The translations under genes and the position numbers were made by a program. A model generated the notes under the pieces. It was not told the DNA's origin. It saw only the letters and a list, made by a program, of their open reading frames with translations, and made no database searches. Positions 26,182-32,940 of a DNA stretch of 64,000 bases are shown piece after piece. Origin of the DNA: Bacteroidia bacterium (GTDB taxonomy: Bacteria > Bacteroidota > Bacteroidia > 2-12-FULL-35-15). The stretch covers positions 1 to 64,000 of the forward strand of contig JAGVJJ010000089.1 in the NCBI GenBank assembly GCA_020051175.1. The letters run 5' to 3'. Each line of letters opens with the position of its first letter. Position 1 is the first letter of the stretch.

Positions 26182-26556
26182 TCAGCTTAACTTTCGCTGA
26201 GAGATAAGGAAAAGGAATTCTTTGTCCCTGTATGTTTTATTCCTGGATAATCCTTTAATAACAACGTGCTCACGTGTTTGTATGGTTAAGTAATCTTCGA
26301 GTTCAAGGAGGCTTGGCAATACCGTTTTTTTAACATATTTCATGTTCACTTGTTTGCCAAAGGTTTCCACATCTTTTTCGGCATCGCTGGTGTTTATTAC
26401 TATCAGGTCGGGAGGACTTTTTTGTGCTTTGGCAAGAGCATCGTTTAATGAACCTGATTTTTGTATTTCAAACCCGTTACGCGTTAAATTCAGTTCCAGC
26501 AGCTCAAGATCTTTGGTGTTGTTAAACACCAATAAAATACGGTTCATGTTTTTCAT
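26182..26556 (-). CDS. Degenerate response-regulator receiver-like protein
   Basis: A 124-aa protein with a receiver-like start (NRILLVFNNTKDLELLELNL) and the strand PPDLIVINTSDA. In active receivers these positions read VDDE and LILDVMMP. Here the acidic pair is replaced (FN) and the phospho-acceptor Asp is Asn. The second half (residues 80-124) does not follow the usual receiver pattern. It is therefore probably a pseudo-receiver acting by protein contacts, if it is a receiver at all. It lies alone between the GT2 gene and the T9SS type A protein. An alternative start is the Met at codon 4. Confidence 0.55.
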   Translation of the reverse strand: MKNMNRILLVFNNTKDLELLELNLTRNGFEIQKSGSLNDALAKAQKSPPDLIVINTSDAEKDVETFGKQVNMKYVKKTVLPSLLELEDYLTIQTREHVVIKGLSRNKTYRDKEFLFLISQRKLS

Positions 26557-26642: not shown

Positions 26643-28298
26643 TTATTTAGCAATAACTGTTTTCACTGTTTTTGAATAACTGTCAGTAACAATTTTTGTA
26701 AAGTAGATACCTGCCGGCAATTCTGCTGTGTTGATAGCAAAAGAGTTCATACCTGCATTTATTTGTCCGGTAAATACATCTATTACTGATTTACCTGTCA
26801 TGTCAAATAGTGCTATAGTTACTTTGCCTGTTTTGTTAAGGCTGATATTCAACGTTGTTTTGTCATTAGCCGGATTAGGGTAAATACTTGCTGTTCCTAT
26901 TTCGGTTCTATCCTCGTTTATTCCGGATGGGATAACACCAACAAATTTAGGGTCATTGAAAGATGCACCTGTTGCAGCAACAGAGGATGAAGATTGCAGT
27001 CTGTAGTCGGGTGTATCTGATAAGTTGGTTGGAAATGCGTTTACCCAACCGATATTTGCAATAGTTGTGGTTGAGTCATTATCATCATCCGTGAAGATGG
27101 TGTTGTAGATGGTTTGTGTTGCATTTGCATCAATGGTTATGGCTTTGCTGATGTCGTCAGCAATGATGTTGTTTGCAAACACTGCAGAGTCATTGGTAGT
27201 GAAATTATCTACTGTTCCTGCATCTTTCAGGTATACTCCTTTTTCCCACGATGCGGCAACAGAATTAAATACTGAAATAGCGGAGTTTCTACGGATGTAG
27301 AATGCACGCTCAAACTTTTCACCAGATGGTAACGTTACTGTTCCGTTGCGAAGCGGCCCGATGCTGGTAATGTTAGAAAAAACCGCCTGAGTTCTTGGAG
27401 TGTTTGCAGAACCTGTAGCATCATTATCGGATTCAAAGCCGTTTGAATCCCCAGCAGCATCTGACAAATCAGCATCTCTTATAATCAGTCCGAATTGCAC
27501 GCGTCCCCTGTAACCGAAGTCTGTATCAAAATCATCATCCAGGCCACGGAAGGCGATTAAGTATTTTGCATCTACGGTACCACCAAAGAACTCAAAGCTG
27601 TCGTCACCGGAAAAGGAAACCTGTATGTGATCCAGTTTTGTTTTAGAACCAACGGAACCTAAAGTTAAACCATTGATTTCTTTGTTTGGCTGAAAAGCAA
27701 TTCCCGGAAACTCAATACGTACATAAGAAAATACTCCTGAGCTATCCTGATCATTGGTGCCGCCATATTCACTATCAGTAGAAACAACAATGCCTTCAAT
27801 GTTTGCAACCCCACCTGGCTGGTTGTTCATTGCATTTCCAAGAATTACAACACCGCCCCAATCGCCTTCTGCTCTTGCGCCTGCGGCTTCACCGGAGGTA
27901 AATACAATGGGATTGCTGGGTGTGCCCTGTGCAATAATTTTAGAGCCTTTAGCAATAAGCAGTGTTCCCTGTGTTGCTTTGTCACCGCGGATGACAACGC
28001 CCGGTTCGATTGTAAGCACAGCATTGTTCTTTACGTAAATTTTATTTTGTAAGGAAACAACTGTTCCTGCAGCCCACGTTGTGTTTGTTGTAATGTCAGT
28101 ACTTACAGTAGTTGTAGGAGCTCCGTAGTTTTCGTTTTCAGGGTCAAAGCTTGTCCAGCCGCTGGTCCAGTCAGATGCTGTGGTATTGTCTGTTACAGGA
28201 AATGCACCCTTGTAAGATGTTGTTGTCCAGAAAGCAGTTTGTGCTGACAGTGAACCACCAAGCAGACCTGCTAATGCAATTGAGTAGAGTTTTTTCAT
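26643..28298 (-). CDS. Secreted surface protein with beta-helix-like body and T9SS type A sorting domain
   Basis: A 551-aa protein; the ATG at 28298 gives signal peptide MKKLYSIALAGLLGGSLSAQ, while a start 13 codons upstream would bury it. The body (about 20-460) is rich in Asn/Thr/Asp with parallel-beta-helix-like text (LTIEPGVVIRGDKATQGTLL, IVFTSGEAAGARAEGDWGGV). The C-terminal 80 residues begin ASIYPNPANDKTTLNIS and end GIYFTKIVTDSYSKTVKTVI, a type A T9SS sorting domain. It follows the TonB-dependent receptor gene on the same strand after a 230-bp gap, which suggests a surface partner of that receptor. No catalytic motif is recognised. Confidence 0.85.
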   Translation of the reverse strand: MKKLYSIALAGLLGGSLSAQTAFWTTTSYKGAFPVTDNTTASDWTSGWTSFDPENENYGAPTTTVSTDITTNTTWAAGTVVSLQNKIYVKNNAVLTIEPGVVIRGDKATQGTLLIAKGSKIIAQGTPSNPIVFTSGEAAGARAEGDWGGVVILGNAMNNQPGGVANIEGIVVSTDSEYGGTNDQDSSGVFSYVRIEFPGIAFQPNKEINGLTLGSVGSKTKLDHIQVSFSGDDSFEFFGGTVDAKYLIAFRGLDDDFDTDFGYRGRVQFGLIIRDADLSDAAGDSNGFESDNDATGSANTPRTQAVFSNITSIGPLRNGTVTLPSGEKFERAFYIRRNSAISVFNSVAASWEKGVYLKDAGTVDNFTTNDSAVFANNIIADDISKAITIDANATQTIYNTIFTDDDNDSTTTIANIGWVNAFPTNLSDTPDYRLQSSSSVAATGASFNDPKFVGVIPSGINEDRTEIGTASIYPNPANDKTTLNISLNKTGKVTIALFDMTGKSVIDVFTGQINAGMNSFAINTAELPAGIYFTKIVTDSYSKTVKTVIAK

Positions 28299-28334
28299 GT
28301 TCAAATAATTATTTTTTCGTTTTTTAATTCGGTA

Positions 28335-28342
28335 CAAAACTA
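28335..28342 (-). promoter_or_regulatory. Candidate -7 promoter element for the T9SS type A gene
   Basis: Read on the minus strand this is TAGTTTTG, a full match to TAnnTTTG, 36 bases before the ATG. No TTG partner is seen. Confidence 0.45.
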
Positions 28343-28528: not shown

Positions 28529-31381
28529 TTAAAACTTATAGCTTAATCCTATCGCAATTGTTTGCCCGAAACTGGTGCTTGTCATTGTGTTGTCAATAGT
28601 ATCGTTGTATTTGCCGTCTTTATCAATATCCTGATAAAACACAAGATTTTGTGCAAGCACATCGCGAACATTCAATTTTATTTCCAAGCGTTCTTTTATA
28701 CGTTTAACAACCTGAATGTCGAGCACGTTACGTGGCTTTTCCCAATAATCGGGTTCGCTGCTGCTGCCAACAATATAGATACGTTTTCCTACGAGGTTGT
28801 ACGAAGCACTTATGCTCCATGCATCGGAAGGTGTGTACTGGATACCGGCATTGATGATTACCGGTGATTGTCCCTGTAGTGGCCGTTCAGACGATGTTAC
28901 CCCATTTATTCCGCTTACATCCACTTTTGATTTAATAAAAGAAACATTTGTATAAAGAGTGGTCGCAGATAAAAAGCTGCTGGAATCATTACCGAAAATG
29001 GAGCTTAGTTTAAATCGGTATTCCAGCTCCATTCCTATATTGGTGGCTTTTGGAACGTTTACATAATAAAGCTCCCGCAATACATCCGGGCGATTGGCTT
29101 GTTCAATGGCATCCGTAAATACTTTATAGAACCCGGATACGGAAATGAGCTGTCCTGCCCCAGGAAACAGCTCGAACCGTAAATCATAATTGTCTATTGT
29201 AGCACGCTTCAGGTTTGGGTTTCCGGAGATTGCGAAATCAGTTACAAAATCATAAAAAATGAACGGTGCCAATTCCCTGAATTCAGGGCGCGAAACGGTA
29301 CGGTAATAACTGCCCCTGATATTTATTTTTTCGGTAAGTGAGTATACGAGGTTTGCAGAAGGCAATAGATCATTTACCGTTGTATCCACATCAATTGGTG
29401 TATTACTACCGTCTTTAACGGTATGTAACTGCTGGTTATACGATTCAAGGCGAACACCGTATATGGCCCGCAGGCGTTCAAAAAATTTCATGTCGAGCAT
29501 TATAAAGCCAGCGTTCAGCAATGAGGATGCAGTGTAGCTGTCGCTGGTTTTTGTGGCTTCATCCAGCTTGAACCCACCGTTGTAGGGGCCAGGTTTGTCC
29601 AGGATACCCATGTTTGTGCTGGCGAATATTTCTTCTTCAGGCAGTAGCAGCAGTTCGCTGTTGAATTTTACTGCGCTTCCCTGCCTGTACTTGGAAAATC
29701 CAAGGTTGCGGGCGCTGAAGTCCCTGTCCCTTAATTGGTGGAAGCCACCCAGTTTCAAATCCGATTTTATTCCGTTTATTTCGAACGGATAGCTGGCTTC
29801 ATAGCGGAAGCTGGATATTTTTTCATTGGTTTCAGAAAAAAACATATTGCCTGCGGCATTGGGAATAGTACCTTCATTTTGAATGATTGCGGCATAATTG
29901 GTAGTGCTGTCGTCTTCATCAGCCGCCACTTTCTGATAAACAACTCTTCGCATATTCGGTACACTGCGTTTAATATTGCTATAACCTCCCACCCATTTTA
30001 CTTTTACTTTTGATGCGGGCAACAAATGCTCACCGCTCAGCTGTCCGGTGTACAACAGGTTTTGAGTAAACCATCGGAGGGATGATTTTTCCCATTGTTT
30101 TTCCGGTTGATCAAATTCACGCGCCCCGGAACGTATCGTTACTTTGTCGTCACTGTTAACGCTTAACAGATTTTTGGAACTAAACTGATTGTTGTCATTT
30201 AATTTATAGGCCAGGTTCCACATGGCGCTGGCCAGCACAGCTTGTGTGTATTGTTTGTCATAGAGCTCCATGCGTTTTACAACCTCCGTAGCCTGCTCTT
30301 CGTATTCTCTTCGAATGATTTCGTTATAAGAAAAATTGTTTTGATAAGTAAGTGCAAAGATACTACCAGCTTCTCTTCCAAGCACTTTTCCTACGTTGGC
30401 CATGCTGTATTGCAGGTTAAGTGATGGCATTGCAGTAGTTTTGTTCAAAGCCCAGGAAGGGTTCATTTTTTTTGCGAGATCACCTTTCTGTTGTACAGTG
30501 AGGTGCGAAAACTCTTCAGTGGCGGGGAGTGCCGCTGGTAACGCTCTTGTACCGTCATCAATACCTAGCCAGTCATATTTGCCGCCATCATATGTTTTAA
30601 ACTCTTTAAATGTAGTGATAGTATTGTAAGAGCCGTTAATGGAAATGGTTTGCTCATTTTTTTCGGGAATACTTTTGGTGTTTATCTGTATCACACCACC
30701 GGCAAATTCACCTGGCATATCCGGTGTTGCTGTTTTAGTAATAACAAGATTGTCGAGCATATTGGATGGGAAAATATCAAATGCGAATGCTTTTCTGTCG
30801 GATTCCGAGCTTGGCAACGGGGCTCCATTGATGTAAGCAGCATTATACCTGTCGTTTAAGCCTCTGATAATTGCGAATTTATTTTCCTGGATGCTGGCCC
30901 CGCTTACGCGTTTTAGCACATCGCTCGTATTTCTGTCAGGTGTTCTTCTGATAGCTTCTGAAGAAATACCGTCCGATACAGAAGCATTGTTCTTTTGCAT
31001 TACCAGCATGGCATTGGTAGTTTCCTTGCTCATGGTGGCTACCACTTCTACCACTCCTAAGTCCGTAGAAGCGGTGGACATGGTAATGGAAACAATTGCA
31101 GGTTCACCAGCCTTTACAACAACATCCTGCAACAGCTTTGTATTGTAAGAAATAAGTTTACACACAAGGGTATATTTGCCGGGAGCTACATTGTTGATGG
31201 TAAATGCCCCGTCTAAATCGGTGCTGCCGCCAGTTGTTGTGCCTTCTATCATCACAACCGCACCAGGCAGCGTTTCTCCGTTTTGTTCATCCACAACTTT
31301 TCCTTTGATAGAAGAGGTTTGGGCGAAGACCGTGTTAACCAACAAAATAAAGAGAACCGAAGCGGATAATTTTAGTTTCAT
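28529..31381 (-). CDS. TonB-dependent outer-membrane receptor
   Basis: A 950-aa protein with signal peptide MKLKLSASVLFILLVNTVFAQ. It has an N-terminal regulatory-like domain (about 22-105, IKGKVVDEQNGETLPGAVVM), a plug domain (about 110-245, SDVLKRVSGASIQ, FAIIRGLNDRYNAAYINGAP) and a C-terminal 22-strand barrel ending in an aromatic residue (LSYKF). It imports a ligand through the outer membrane using TonB energy; the ligand cannot be told from sequence. Lack of an adjacent SusD gene argues against a standard glycan system. Its promoter region is shared with the divergent PhoB-type regulator and holds 11-bp-phased repeats, so control by that regulator is likely. Phosphate-related uptake is one possibility but unproven. 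Confidence 0.92.
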   Translation of the reverse strand: MKLKLSASVLFILLVNTVFAQTSSIKGKVVDEQNGETLPGAVVMIEGTTTGGSTDLDGAFTINNVAPGKYTLVCKLISYNTKLLQDVVVKAGEPAIVSITMSTASTDLGVVEVVATMSKETTNAMLVMQKNNASVSDGISSEAIRRTPDRNTSDVLKRVSGASIQENKFAIIRGLNDRYNAAYINGAPLPSSESDRKAFAFDIFPSNMLDNLVITKTATPDMPGEFAGGVIQINTKSIPEKNEQTISINGSYNTITTFKEFKTYDGGKYDWLGIDDGTRALPAALPATEEFSHLTVQQKGDLAKKMNPSWALNKTTAMPSLNLQYSMANVGKVLGREAGSIFALTYQNNFSYNEIIRREYEEQATEVVKRMELYDKQYTQAVLASAMWNLAYKLNDNNQFSSKNLLSVNSDDKVTIRSGAREFDQPEKQWEKSSLRWFTQNLLYTGQLSGEHLLPASKVKVKWVGGYSNIKRSVPNMRRVVYQKVAADEDDSTTNYAAIIQNEGTIPNAAGNMFFSETNEKISSFRYEASYPFEINGIKSDLKLGGFHQLRDRDFSARNLGFSKYRQGSAVKFNSELLLLPEEEIFASTNMGILDKPGPYNGGFKLDEATKTSDSYTASSLLNAGFIMLDMKFFERLRAIYGVRLESYNQQLHTVKDGSNTPIDVDTTVNDLLPSANLVYSLTEKINIRGSYYRTVSRPEFRELAPFIFYDFVTDFAISGNPNLKRATIDNYDLRFELFPGAGQLISVSGFYKVFTDAIEQANRPDVLRELYYVNVPKATNIGMELEYRFKLSSIFGNDSSSFLSATTLYTNVSFIKSKVDVSGINGVTSSERPLQGQSPVIINAGIQYTPSDAWSISASYNLVGKRIYIVGSSSEPDYWEKPRNVLDIQVVKRIKERLEIKLNVRDVLAQNLVFYQDIDKDGKYNDTIDNTMTSTSFGQTIAIGLSYKF

Positions 31382-31432
31382 TTGTATGCTTTAATTTTTC
31401 TACAAAGTAATTGCTGAAAAATCAATGCAGCG

Positions 31433-31459
31433 TTAATGAATAATTAATGTAGTGTTAAG
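31433..31459 (-). promoter_or_regulatory. Three 11-bp-phased TTAA repeats (receptor side)
   Basis: TTAAT at 31433, TTAAT at 31444 and TTAAG at 31455 are spaced exactly 11 bp apart, about 52-78 bases upstream of the receptor ATG. Read toward the receptor they are TTAAC, TTAAT, TTAAC. Direct repeats with 11-bp spacing are the usual binding layout for OmpR/PhoB-family regulators. Confidence 0.65.
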
Positions 31460-31484
31460 TAAATGCTGTCCAGCTCTTTCTTTC

Positions 31485-31511
31485 TTAATATTAACTTAAT
31501 TGGAATTTAAC
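31485..31511 (+). promoter_or_regulatory. Three 11-bp-phased TTAA repeats (regulator side)
   Basis: TTAAT at 31485, TTAAT at 31496 and TTAAC at 31507 are spaced exactly 11 bp apart and end 2 bases before a perfect -7 box. They take the place of the -33 region of the regulator's own promoter, which suggests autoregulation. Confidence 0.7.
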
Positions 31512-31513
31512 AG

Positions 31514-31521
31514 TATGTTTG
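31514..31521 (+). promoter_or_regulatory. -7 promoter element of the response-regulator gene
   Basis: TATGTTTG matches TAnnTTTG exactly, 41 bases upstream of the ATG at 31563 and directly after the phased repeats. Confidence 0.6.
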
Positions 31522-31562
31522 ATTTAAACCGGCAATTTTACAGTGAATTATAAATAAGAAAA

Positions 31563-32249
31563 ATGAATAATAGTGAATACAAGATTTTATTAGTGGATGA
31601 CGAACCGGATATTCTGGAATTTCTGAGCTATAATCTGAAAAAAGAAGGTTACAATGTTTTAAATGCCGGCAATGGCAAAGAAGCTGTTGCCATTGCAAAG
31701 AAGGAACGTCCGCATCTTATTATCCTGGATGTGATGATGCCGGATATGGACGGGATAGAAACCTGCCGGGAAATCAGGGAAATACCAATGCTTAAAAATA
31801 CCGTAATTACTTTTTTAACTGCACGCAATGAAGATTACTCCCAGATTGCGGGTTTTGAAGTTGGTGCGGATGATTATATCAACAAACCGATAAAGCCGAG
31901 GGTGCTGGTAAGCCGTATTAAAGCATTGTTAAGACGGGGCAATGGGATTCCAGATCCTTCAGCAGAAAAAGTGGAGCTGGGTGGTATAAAAATAGACCGG
32001 GAGCGGTATGTGATTGTAAAAGACGAAGTAGATATCAGCCTGCCTAAAAAAGAGTTTGAACTCATAGCCCTGCTTGCATCTAAGCCCGGCAAAGTGTTTA
32101 CCCGGGATGTGATTCTGGATACCGTTTGGGGTGGAGAGGTAGTAGTTGGTGATCGGACCATTGATGTACATATACGCAAGCTGCGTGAAAAGCTTGGAGA
32201 AGACCTCATAAAAACAGTAAAAGGTATAGGTTATAAATTTGAGTTTTAA
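31563..32249 (+). CDS. OmpR/PhoB-family response regulator
   Basis: A 228-aa two-domain regulator. The receiver (about 5-125) is complete: acidic pair in LLVDDEPD, phospho-acceptor Asp in LIILDVMMPDMDG, conserved Thr in FLTARN and Lys in INKPIKP. The winged-helix DNA-binding domain (about 135-228) ends with the recognition region DRTIDVHIRKLREKLGED and IKTVKGIGYKFEF. It most resembles the PhoB-type group. No histidine kinase gene is next to it, since the downstream gene belongs to a separate PadR unit behind a terminator. It probably binds the phased TTAA arrays upstream and controls itself and the divergent TonB receptor. Confidence 0.92.
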   Translation: MNNSEYKILLVDDEPDILEFLSYNLKKEGYNVLNAGNGKEAVAIAKKERPHLIILDVMMPDMDGIETCREIREIPMLKNTVITFLTARNEDYSQIAGFEVGADDYINKPIKPRVLVSRIKALLRRGNGIPDPSAEKVELGGIKIDRERYVIVKDEVDISLPKKEFELIALLASKPGKVFTRDVILDTVWGGEVVVGDRTIDVHIRKLREKLGEDLIKTVKGIGYKFEF

Positions 32250-32339
32250 ATAATTAATAAAGCCATACCGTTTCCAGGTATTGGCTGCTACACGTTACCC
32301 TTTCAGGGCTATCAAATAGCTATCGGTTTTCTTATTTCG

Positions 32340-32368
32340 AGGCTTCCTTATGAAGGAAGCCTTTTTTG
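32340..32368 (+). terminator. Intrinsic terminator after the response-regulator gene
   Basis: A perfect 10-bp stem (AGGCTTCCTT/AAGGAAGCCT) with a 3-base loop is followed by TTTTTTG. It lies about 90 bases after the stop codon. Confidence 0.85.
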
Positions 32369-32554
32369 TTTTCCTCCTACACAGTTCATTTCGAGCTGGT
32401 CGAGAAAGTGTGAAATGCGGGCTTGATAGCTAAAAAGCAATGCCAGAAAACAGAAATTTGGTAGTTACCAAAATGAAAACGCGATAATATTCAGAATAAT
32501 TTAAAATTTATTTTATTGATTATCAGTGCATTATAAAATTGTTGCAAAAATTTC
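32369..32554. other. Intergenic region between terminator and PadR operator
   Basis: No gene. 32385-32407 reads TTCATTTCGAGCTGGTCGAG followed by AAA and carries a TCGA/TCGA palindrome; it resembles the short dispersed palindromic repeats common in Bacteroidota genomes. The rest is AT-rich. Confidence 0.4.
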
Positions 32555-32579
32555 TTATGCAAAATTTGCAAATGCATAA
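32555..32579 (+). promoter_or_regulatory. Candidate PadR operator
   Basis: A perfect inverted repeat TTATGCA (32555-32561) and TGCATAA (32573-32579) with an 11-base centre. It covers the TTG -33 element at 32566-32568 and sits 22 bases upstream of the PadR start codon, as expected for an autorepressor site. Confidence 0.6.
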
Positions 32580-32597
32580 TATTCTTATGTATCTTTG
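32566..32597 (+). promoter_or_regulatory. Promoter of the PadR gene
   Basis: TTG at 32566-32568, a 21-base spacer, and TATCTTTG at 32590-32597, an exact -7 match. The start codon follows after only 4 bases, so the transcript would be leaderless or nearly so. Confidence 0.65.
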
Positions 32598-32601
32598 AGT
32601 T

Positions 32602-32940
32602 ATGTATTCATCAGAACTCGTAAAAGGCACTTTAAAAACGATAGTTTTAAAGTTATTATCCGAAAACAATCAAATGTACGGATATGAAATCACTCAAAAG
32701 GTGAAAGAATTAACAGGCAATAAAATTCAGATTACGGAGGGGGCTTTGTACCCAACCCTTCATGCATTGGAGAATGACGGGGTAGTAACTACCGAGGTAG
32801 TGAATATTGGGAAAAGGGTTCGCAAATATTATAAGCTAACACCCCAGGGAAAAAACAATGCGATGGAAAAGGTAAATGAGTTTGCCGACTTCATCCAGAC
32901 GATGAAATTTTTGTTAGACATTAAACCTCAGTTAGGGTAA
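32602..32940 (+). CDS. PadR family transcriptional regulator
   Basis: A 112-aa winged-helix protein of the short PadR-s2 type. Typical features are the opening SSELVKGTLKTIVLKLL, then MYGYEITQKVKEL, ITEGALYPTLHALENDG and the wing RVRKYYKLTPQGK. The start is supported because family members begin just before SELLKGT. Its stop overlaps the ATG of the next gene by one base (TAATG), so the two are translationally coupled. PadR repressors usually control the gene beside them, often a membrane protein, and themselves through a palindromic operator; such a palindrome lies over the promoter. Confidence 0.92.
   Translation: MYSSELVKGTLKTIVLKLLSENNQMYGYEITQKVKELTGNKIQITEGALYPTLHALENDGVVTTEVVNIGKRVRKYYKLTPQGKNNAMEKVNEFADFIQTMKFLLDIKPQLG

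Follow-up and report, generated by a model that had tools for sequence, protein, structure and literature searches.

Between the gene of a TonB-dependent receptor and that of a PhoB-type response regulator, two arrays of short TTAA repeats are located. The question is whether they are regulatory sites and, if so, of which regulator and for which signal. In the following, the window is the whole 64-kb stretch of DNA that was analyzed, and positions without a contig name refer to it. With high probability, both arrays are Pho boxes of a Bacteroidota PhoB, which would activate the phoB and receptor promoters under phosphate starvation.

Repeat arrays in the divergent region

The divergent ORFs (28529-31381, minus strand, and 31563-32249, plus strand) are separated by a gap of 181 bp. 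On the plus strand, array 1 reads TTAAT/TTAAT/TTAAG (31433, 31444 and 31455) and array 2 reads TTAAT/TTAAT/TTAAC (31485, 31496 and 31507). The six TTAA units with their exact 11-bp spacing are just as given in the original prediction, and its distances of 52 bases to both start codons and between the arrays are correct as well. The units of array 1 are present, but its plus-strand reading was dropped, since the minus strand matches TTAAY better and faces the receptor. On this strand, the predicted Pho box 1 (31432..31458) is TTAAC-N6-TTAAT-N6-TTAAC (TTAACACTACATTAATTATTCATTAAC), and a fourth unit, the degenerate TTGAT, is found at 31421-31425. The predicted Pho box 2 (31485..31511, plus strand; TTAAT-N6-TTAAT-N6-TTAAC) faces phoB. 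With array 1 read on the minus strand, both arrays finish with TTAAC toward the gene faced. The classical Pho box consists of two or more direct repeats of 11 nt, the core of which varies between species (PMC4415409); each of the two arrays has three such units in tandem.

The pattern TTAA-N7-TTAA-N7-TTAA was found at two places in the window, both being the arrays, compared to 0.02 expected. Dinucleotide shuffles of the 181 bp contained one triplet in 0.2% of cases and two triplets in none of 20,000, and when all periods between 5 and 25 were allowed, two triplets were absent from 5,000 shuffles of this region. In the whole 4.05-Mb assembly, TTAAB-N6-TTAAB-N6-TTAAB could be identified at one further place (C10:26356). 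A search with two mismatches allowed was uninformative (272 matches vs. 316 for the reversed control). The AT-rich region, in which TTAA is common, and the two-mismatch pattern, which is no commoner than its control, would fit chance repeats in intergenic DNA. However, the shuffle tests, the 11-genome footprint and the single function of the target genes described below all contradict chance, the probability of which is practically negligible.

Conservation and promoter geometry

For the footprint, 11 genomes of the same genus were used (the window and ten others). The same divergent gene pair was found in these ten genomes and in one genome of another family (L092). A comparison with relatives had been named as a check in the original prediction, and the 11-bp phase was found to be kept in the orthologous regions: it is present in both arrays in all 11 genomes, a few of which have single degenerate units. 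The identity among the 11 genomes was 85% for the arrays (mean pairwise value for box 1), 90-95% for the −7-like boxes, 46-50% for the spacers between array and box and 44% for the 26 bp between the arrays. This conservation suggests that the arrays are functional. The distance from start to start of the arrays is 52 bp in nine and 50 bp in two of the genomes. The nearly fixed distance may bring both arrays to one face of the helix, which is only suggestive, as small indels could just be uncommon in this region.

The last TTAAC is separated from the −7-like box by 23 nt on both sides in the 11 genomes, with a single exception of 24 nt (L072, phoB side). In L092, this distance is retained on the receptor side, and the third unit is degenerate. 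The conserved −7-like box of the receptor promoter, TTACTTTG, is located at 31403..31410 on the minus strand, where ACTTTG starts 23 nt past the last TTAAC. Within the genus this box is ACTTTG or TCTTTG, with a weaker AATTTG in L077. The conserved −7-like element of the phoB promoter (31533..31541, plus strand) is CAATTTTAC in the window and GAACTTTAC in most relatives; the box itself is ATTTTAC in the window (31535-31541) and ACTTTAC in relatives, and ATTTT starts 23 nt past the last TTAAC. By these 23 nt to a conserved −7-like box, the arrays hold a fixed position next to the core promoter on both sides, as Pho boxes do, the promoters being predicted ones.

A different −7 box for phoB, TATGTTTG (31514..31521, plus strand), had been proposed 2 bases after array 2. 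The sequence is present there, but it was found in this genome only and is absent from 10 of 10 same-genus orthologues, whereas the conserved element lies 23 nt after the array. It was rejected as the phoB box and is probably not the main −7 box of this gene. The same sequence bears on the possibility that the phoB-side array represses, as PhoB on 31485-31511 would cover TATGTTTG, which adjoins the array and is nearer to the Bacteroidota −7 consensus than ATTTTAC. Its absence from all ten orthologues, which retain the distal box and the 23-nt gap, makes repression quite improbable, as does the rise of F. johnsoniae phoB upon phosphate depletion reported in excerpts of PMC8115612. Activation is the preferred reading.

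Genus-wide motif search and target genes

The search for a strict promoter pattern (three units, TTAAC, 23-25 nt, CTTT) covered 36 genomes of the genus. It resulted in 28 matches compared to 1 for the reversed control, and all of them are phoB or receptor promoters. The matches inspected beyond the footprinted regions belong to seven additional phoB genes, which have other neighbours, and to one receptor promoter. Pho boxes are expected to have about seven well-conserved positions in each 11-nt unit. In the 28 aligned promoters, TTAA(Y) shows little or no variation, and the remaining positions differ by unit.

A sequence profile of 63 columns was built from the 28 promoters and run over the same 36 genomes. 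All 30 held-out matches that were inspected, which are weaker ones, are located upstream of genes and none inside a gene. The targets are DUF47-pitA (9), pstC (4), phoB (6), a receiver-only regulator (1) and a secreted MORN-repeat protein (10). Since held-out and training sites share the same genomes, and phoB promoters once more account for six of the held-out sites, the remaining 24 carry more weight as a test. Representatives of the targets were named by profile and the others via near-identical N-termini. DUF47 (PF01865) is the partner of the phosphate transporter PitA, and pstC corresponds to TIGR02138 (302 bits for the one tested). A further weak profile match was found upstream of pstS in G002. 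Within the genus, the sites are therefore found upstream of phosphate-acquisition genes (phoB, DUF47-pitA, pstC and pstS), which is typical of Pho boxes. The arrays of the MORN genes have the opposite sense to the profile, and the corresponding MORN gene of the window's own genome is where the C10 array is located. On contig C42 of this genome, genes for an OprP-like protein, DUF47 and PitA are clustered, with a two-unit array before DUF47.

The motif scan that had been put forward as a further check returned genus-wide matches upstream of genes, nearly all of them for phosphate acquisition. These target genes and the phase kept in the orthologues support the original prediction that the arrays are candidate sites of the adjacent OmpR/PhoB regulator, acting on itself and the receptor. 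The signal and the regulon, which it had left open, are most likely phosphate starvation and the Pho regulon.

Other OmpR-type regulators may use similar repeats. Four TTAAY-like units spaced at 11 bp, with one mismatch, are located directly before a histidine kinase-response regulator operon that resembles other OmpR systems (G000:C26:110412-110450), and these units are perhaps a similar site for another OmpR-type regulator. That the arrays of the window belong to such a regulator, with a signal other than phosphate, is nevertheless highly improbable, given that the targets in the relatives are the promoters of phoB, pitA, pstC and pstS.

When the three-unit rule was applied to distant phoB genes, 13 of 79 upstream regions scored 14 or more of 15, compared to 0.6% of shuffles. 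Outside the genus, the arrays before phoB are mostly just degenerate ones, and most Flavobacterium sites are degenerate.

PhoB, PhoR and the second PhoB

The gene phoB (31563..32249, plus strand) encodes a response regulator of 228 aa with a receiver and a winged-helix domain (PF00072 and PF00486). The residues of the phosphorylation site (D12, D13, D56, T86 and K108) are invariant in 12 orthologues. The top two NCBIfam models are both PhoB models, with 220.7 of 296.2 and 208.5 of 270 bits; these values are below both cut-offs, the equivalog cut-off being an annotation threshold and not a biological trait. The Bacteroidota PhoB model is passed by none of the proteins of this genome, and a passing protein was found in just 1 of 14 control genomes. 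A search of solved structures retrieved OmpR-family regulators only and nothing on the DNA site.

In relatives, a PhoR-like kinase directly follows phoB, and several Flavobacterium loci add OprP and PstS. The phoR orthologue of the window's genome is found away from phoB on another contig (C1:16312-17349), where it adjoins a gene resembling the neighbour of phoR in G009. In the window, the genes after phoB (32249-32602) encode a PadR regulator and a GldL_N-domain protein rather than PhoR.

A second, murF-linked PhoB (G000:C59:44128-44805) belongs to a separate clade (support 99/98). The arrays could be Pho boxes of which this protein is the main binder, or which both PhoBs share. We consider this rather unlikely, although the C59 copy has the best score of this genome against the Bacteroidota PhoB model and the murF-linked clade carries the same promoter in G002, G018 and G022, so that the two clades probably recognise one and the same site. 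In this genome, no array precedes the C59 copy, whereas the phoB of the window has one and adjoins it, which is the usual sign of autoregulation. The PhoB encoded next to the arrays is the preferred binder.

Comparison with known systems

The arrays are similar to the boxes of E. coli PhoB and of B. subtilis and Streptomyces PhoP in their tandem 11-nt repeats upstream of phosphate genes, their location by the core promoter and the autoregulation (PMC4415409). The core differs, being TTAAY here compared to CTGTCAT (E. coli PhoB) or GTTCACC (S. coelicolor). In contrast to the classical Pho box, three units and a fixed distance of 23 nt to a Bacteroidota −7-like box were found.

In the literature searched, no consensus of a Bacteroidota Pho box was found beyond the motif of Riemerella anatipestifer PhoP, for which excerpts of PMC9603813 give the core TTTAACA; the regulator was studied by DAP-seq and EMSA. 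The sites listed there include the promoter of PhoP itself and the promoter of a TonB-dependent receptor. PhoP is a Bacteroidota regulator with a pair of targets like that predicted for the window, a likeness at the level of the promoters. In these excerpts the motif is reported as ArcA-like, and neither a three-unit phase nor a fixed promoter distance is described.

In F. johnsoniae, Fjoh_0543-0546 encode PhoR, PhoB, TBDT and FII, and phosphate depletion raises PhoB (log2 3.1), TBDT (8.0) and FII (9.9), as stated in excerpts of PMC8115612. In this phoBR locus (PUSIV, Fjoh_0542-0546), as in the window, phoB lies beside the gene of a TonB-dependent transporter, behind which a secreted protein of the FII type is encoded. 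PUSIV keeps phoR and OprP beside phoB, whereas the phoR of the window's genome is on another contig. An operator is not described for PUSIV in these excerpts. The PhoB of Bacteroides fragilis was found to bind the pstC promoter directly (EMSA, 512-bp fragment), and the consulted parts of this study report no consensus (PMC3547664).

The arrays most likely represent a known kind of control element, which is defined more sharply here for this branch of the Bacteroidota, and their unusually strict, fixed layout is a useful new detail.

Proposed mechanism

PhoB binds in tandem, head to tail, on 11-nt repeats and touches the sigma factor beside the core promoter. This known binding mode and the geometry of the arrays make activation of both promoters with positive autoregulation most likely. 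Upon phosphate starvation, PhoR would phosphorylate PhoB, which would then bind head-to-tail along the three 11-bp TTAAY repeats. Since the promoter-proximal unit lies 23 nt upstream of the −7-like box, approximately at the position of a −33 element, RNA polymerase would be recruited by PhoB, which would substitute for the −33 contact. Box 2 would drive phoB in a positive feedback, and the mirror-image box 1 would drive the TonB receptor and probably also the secreted protein behind it. For this species, we infer binding, activation rather than repression, the role at −33 and phosphate as the signal.

The scavenging of phosphate by Bacteroidota is important in soil, water and the gut. The layout can be searched for as a precise rule, which identified phosphate genes in most of the 36 genomes of one genus, and it could place unknown receptors and secreted proteins in the phosphate response. 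It also makes the action of an activator at Bacteroidota −7 promoters directly testable.

Receptor, secreted protein and additional receivers

The TonB-dependent receptor (28529..31381, minus strand) has 950 aa and the position of a Fjoh_0545-type TBDT beside phoB. The secreted protein of 564 aa with a T9SS sorting domain (26643..28337, minus strand) is probably located downstream in the same unit; its homologues occupy the F. johnsoniae FII position in Flavobacterium loci. In G002, the divergent partner of the receptor gene is an OprP-pstS-pstC-pstA-pstB-phoU operon and not phoB. PhoU and PstC were not detected in the window's own genome, the assembly of which is 82% complete, although it has genes for OprP-like, DUF47 and PitA proteins. 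Either the pst genes fall into the missing part of the assembly, or this species depends on PitA.

Beside the Pho locus of relatives (L106, L108, L109, L113, L198, L201, L202, L258, L263 and L267), stand-alone PhoB-like receivers were found, which are about 46-52% identical to the PhoB receiver and mostly have the phosphorylation Asp, as well as degenerate receivers that lack it. The receiver gene at L267 has its own predicted Pho box. Of these extra receivers, the window retains only a degenerate one (26182-26556, minus strand). The extra receivers may be phosphate sinks or decoys. It is tentatively proposed that the defined Bacteroidota Pho promoter (three TTAAY at 11 bp, a 23-nt gap and a −7 box, with PhoB replacing the −33 contact) belongs to a regulon that in this genus also includes stand-alone as well as non-phosphorylatable PhoB-like receivers, which may damp PhoR-PhoB signalling.

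At G000:C10:24934-26832, a diverged PhoB-like regulator is located near a MORN gene and near a small gene of the CarboxypepD_reg type, preceded in each case by a TTAA array.
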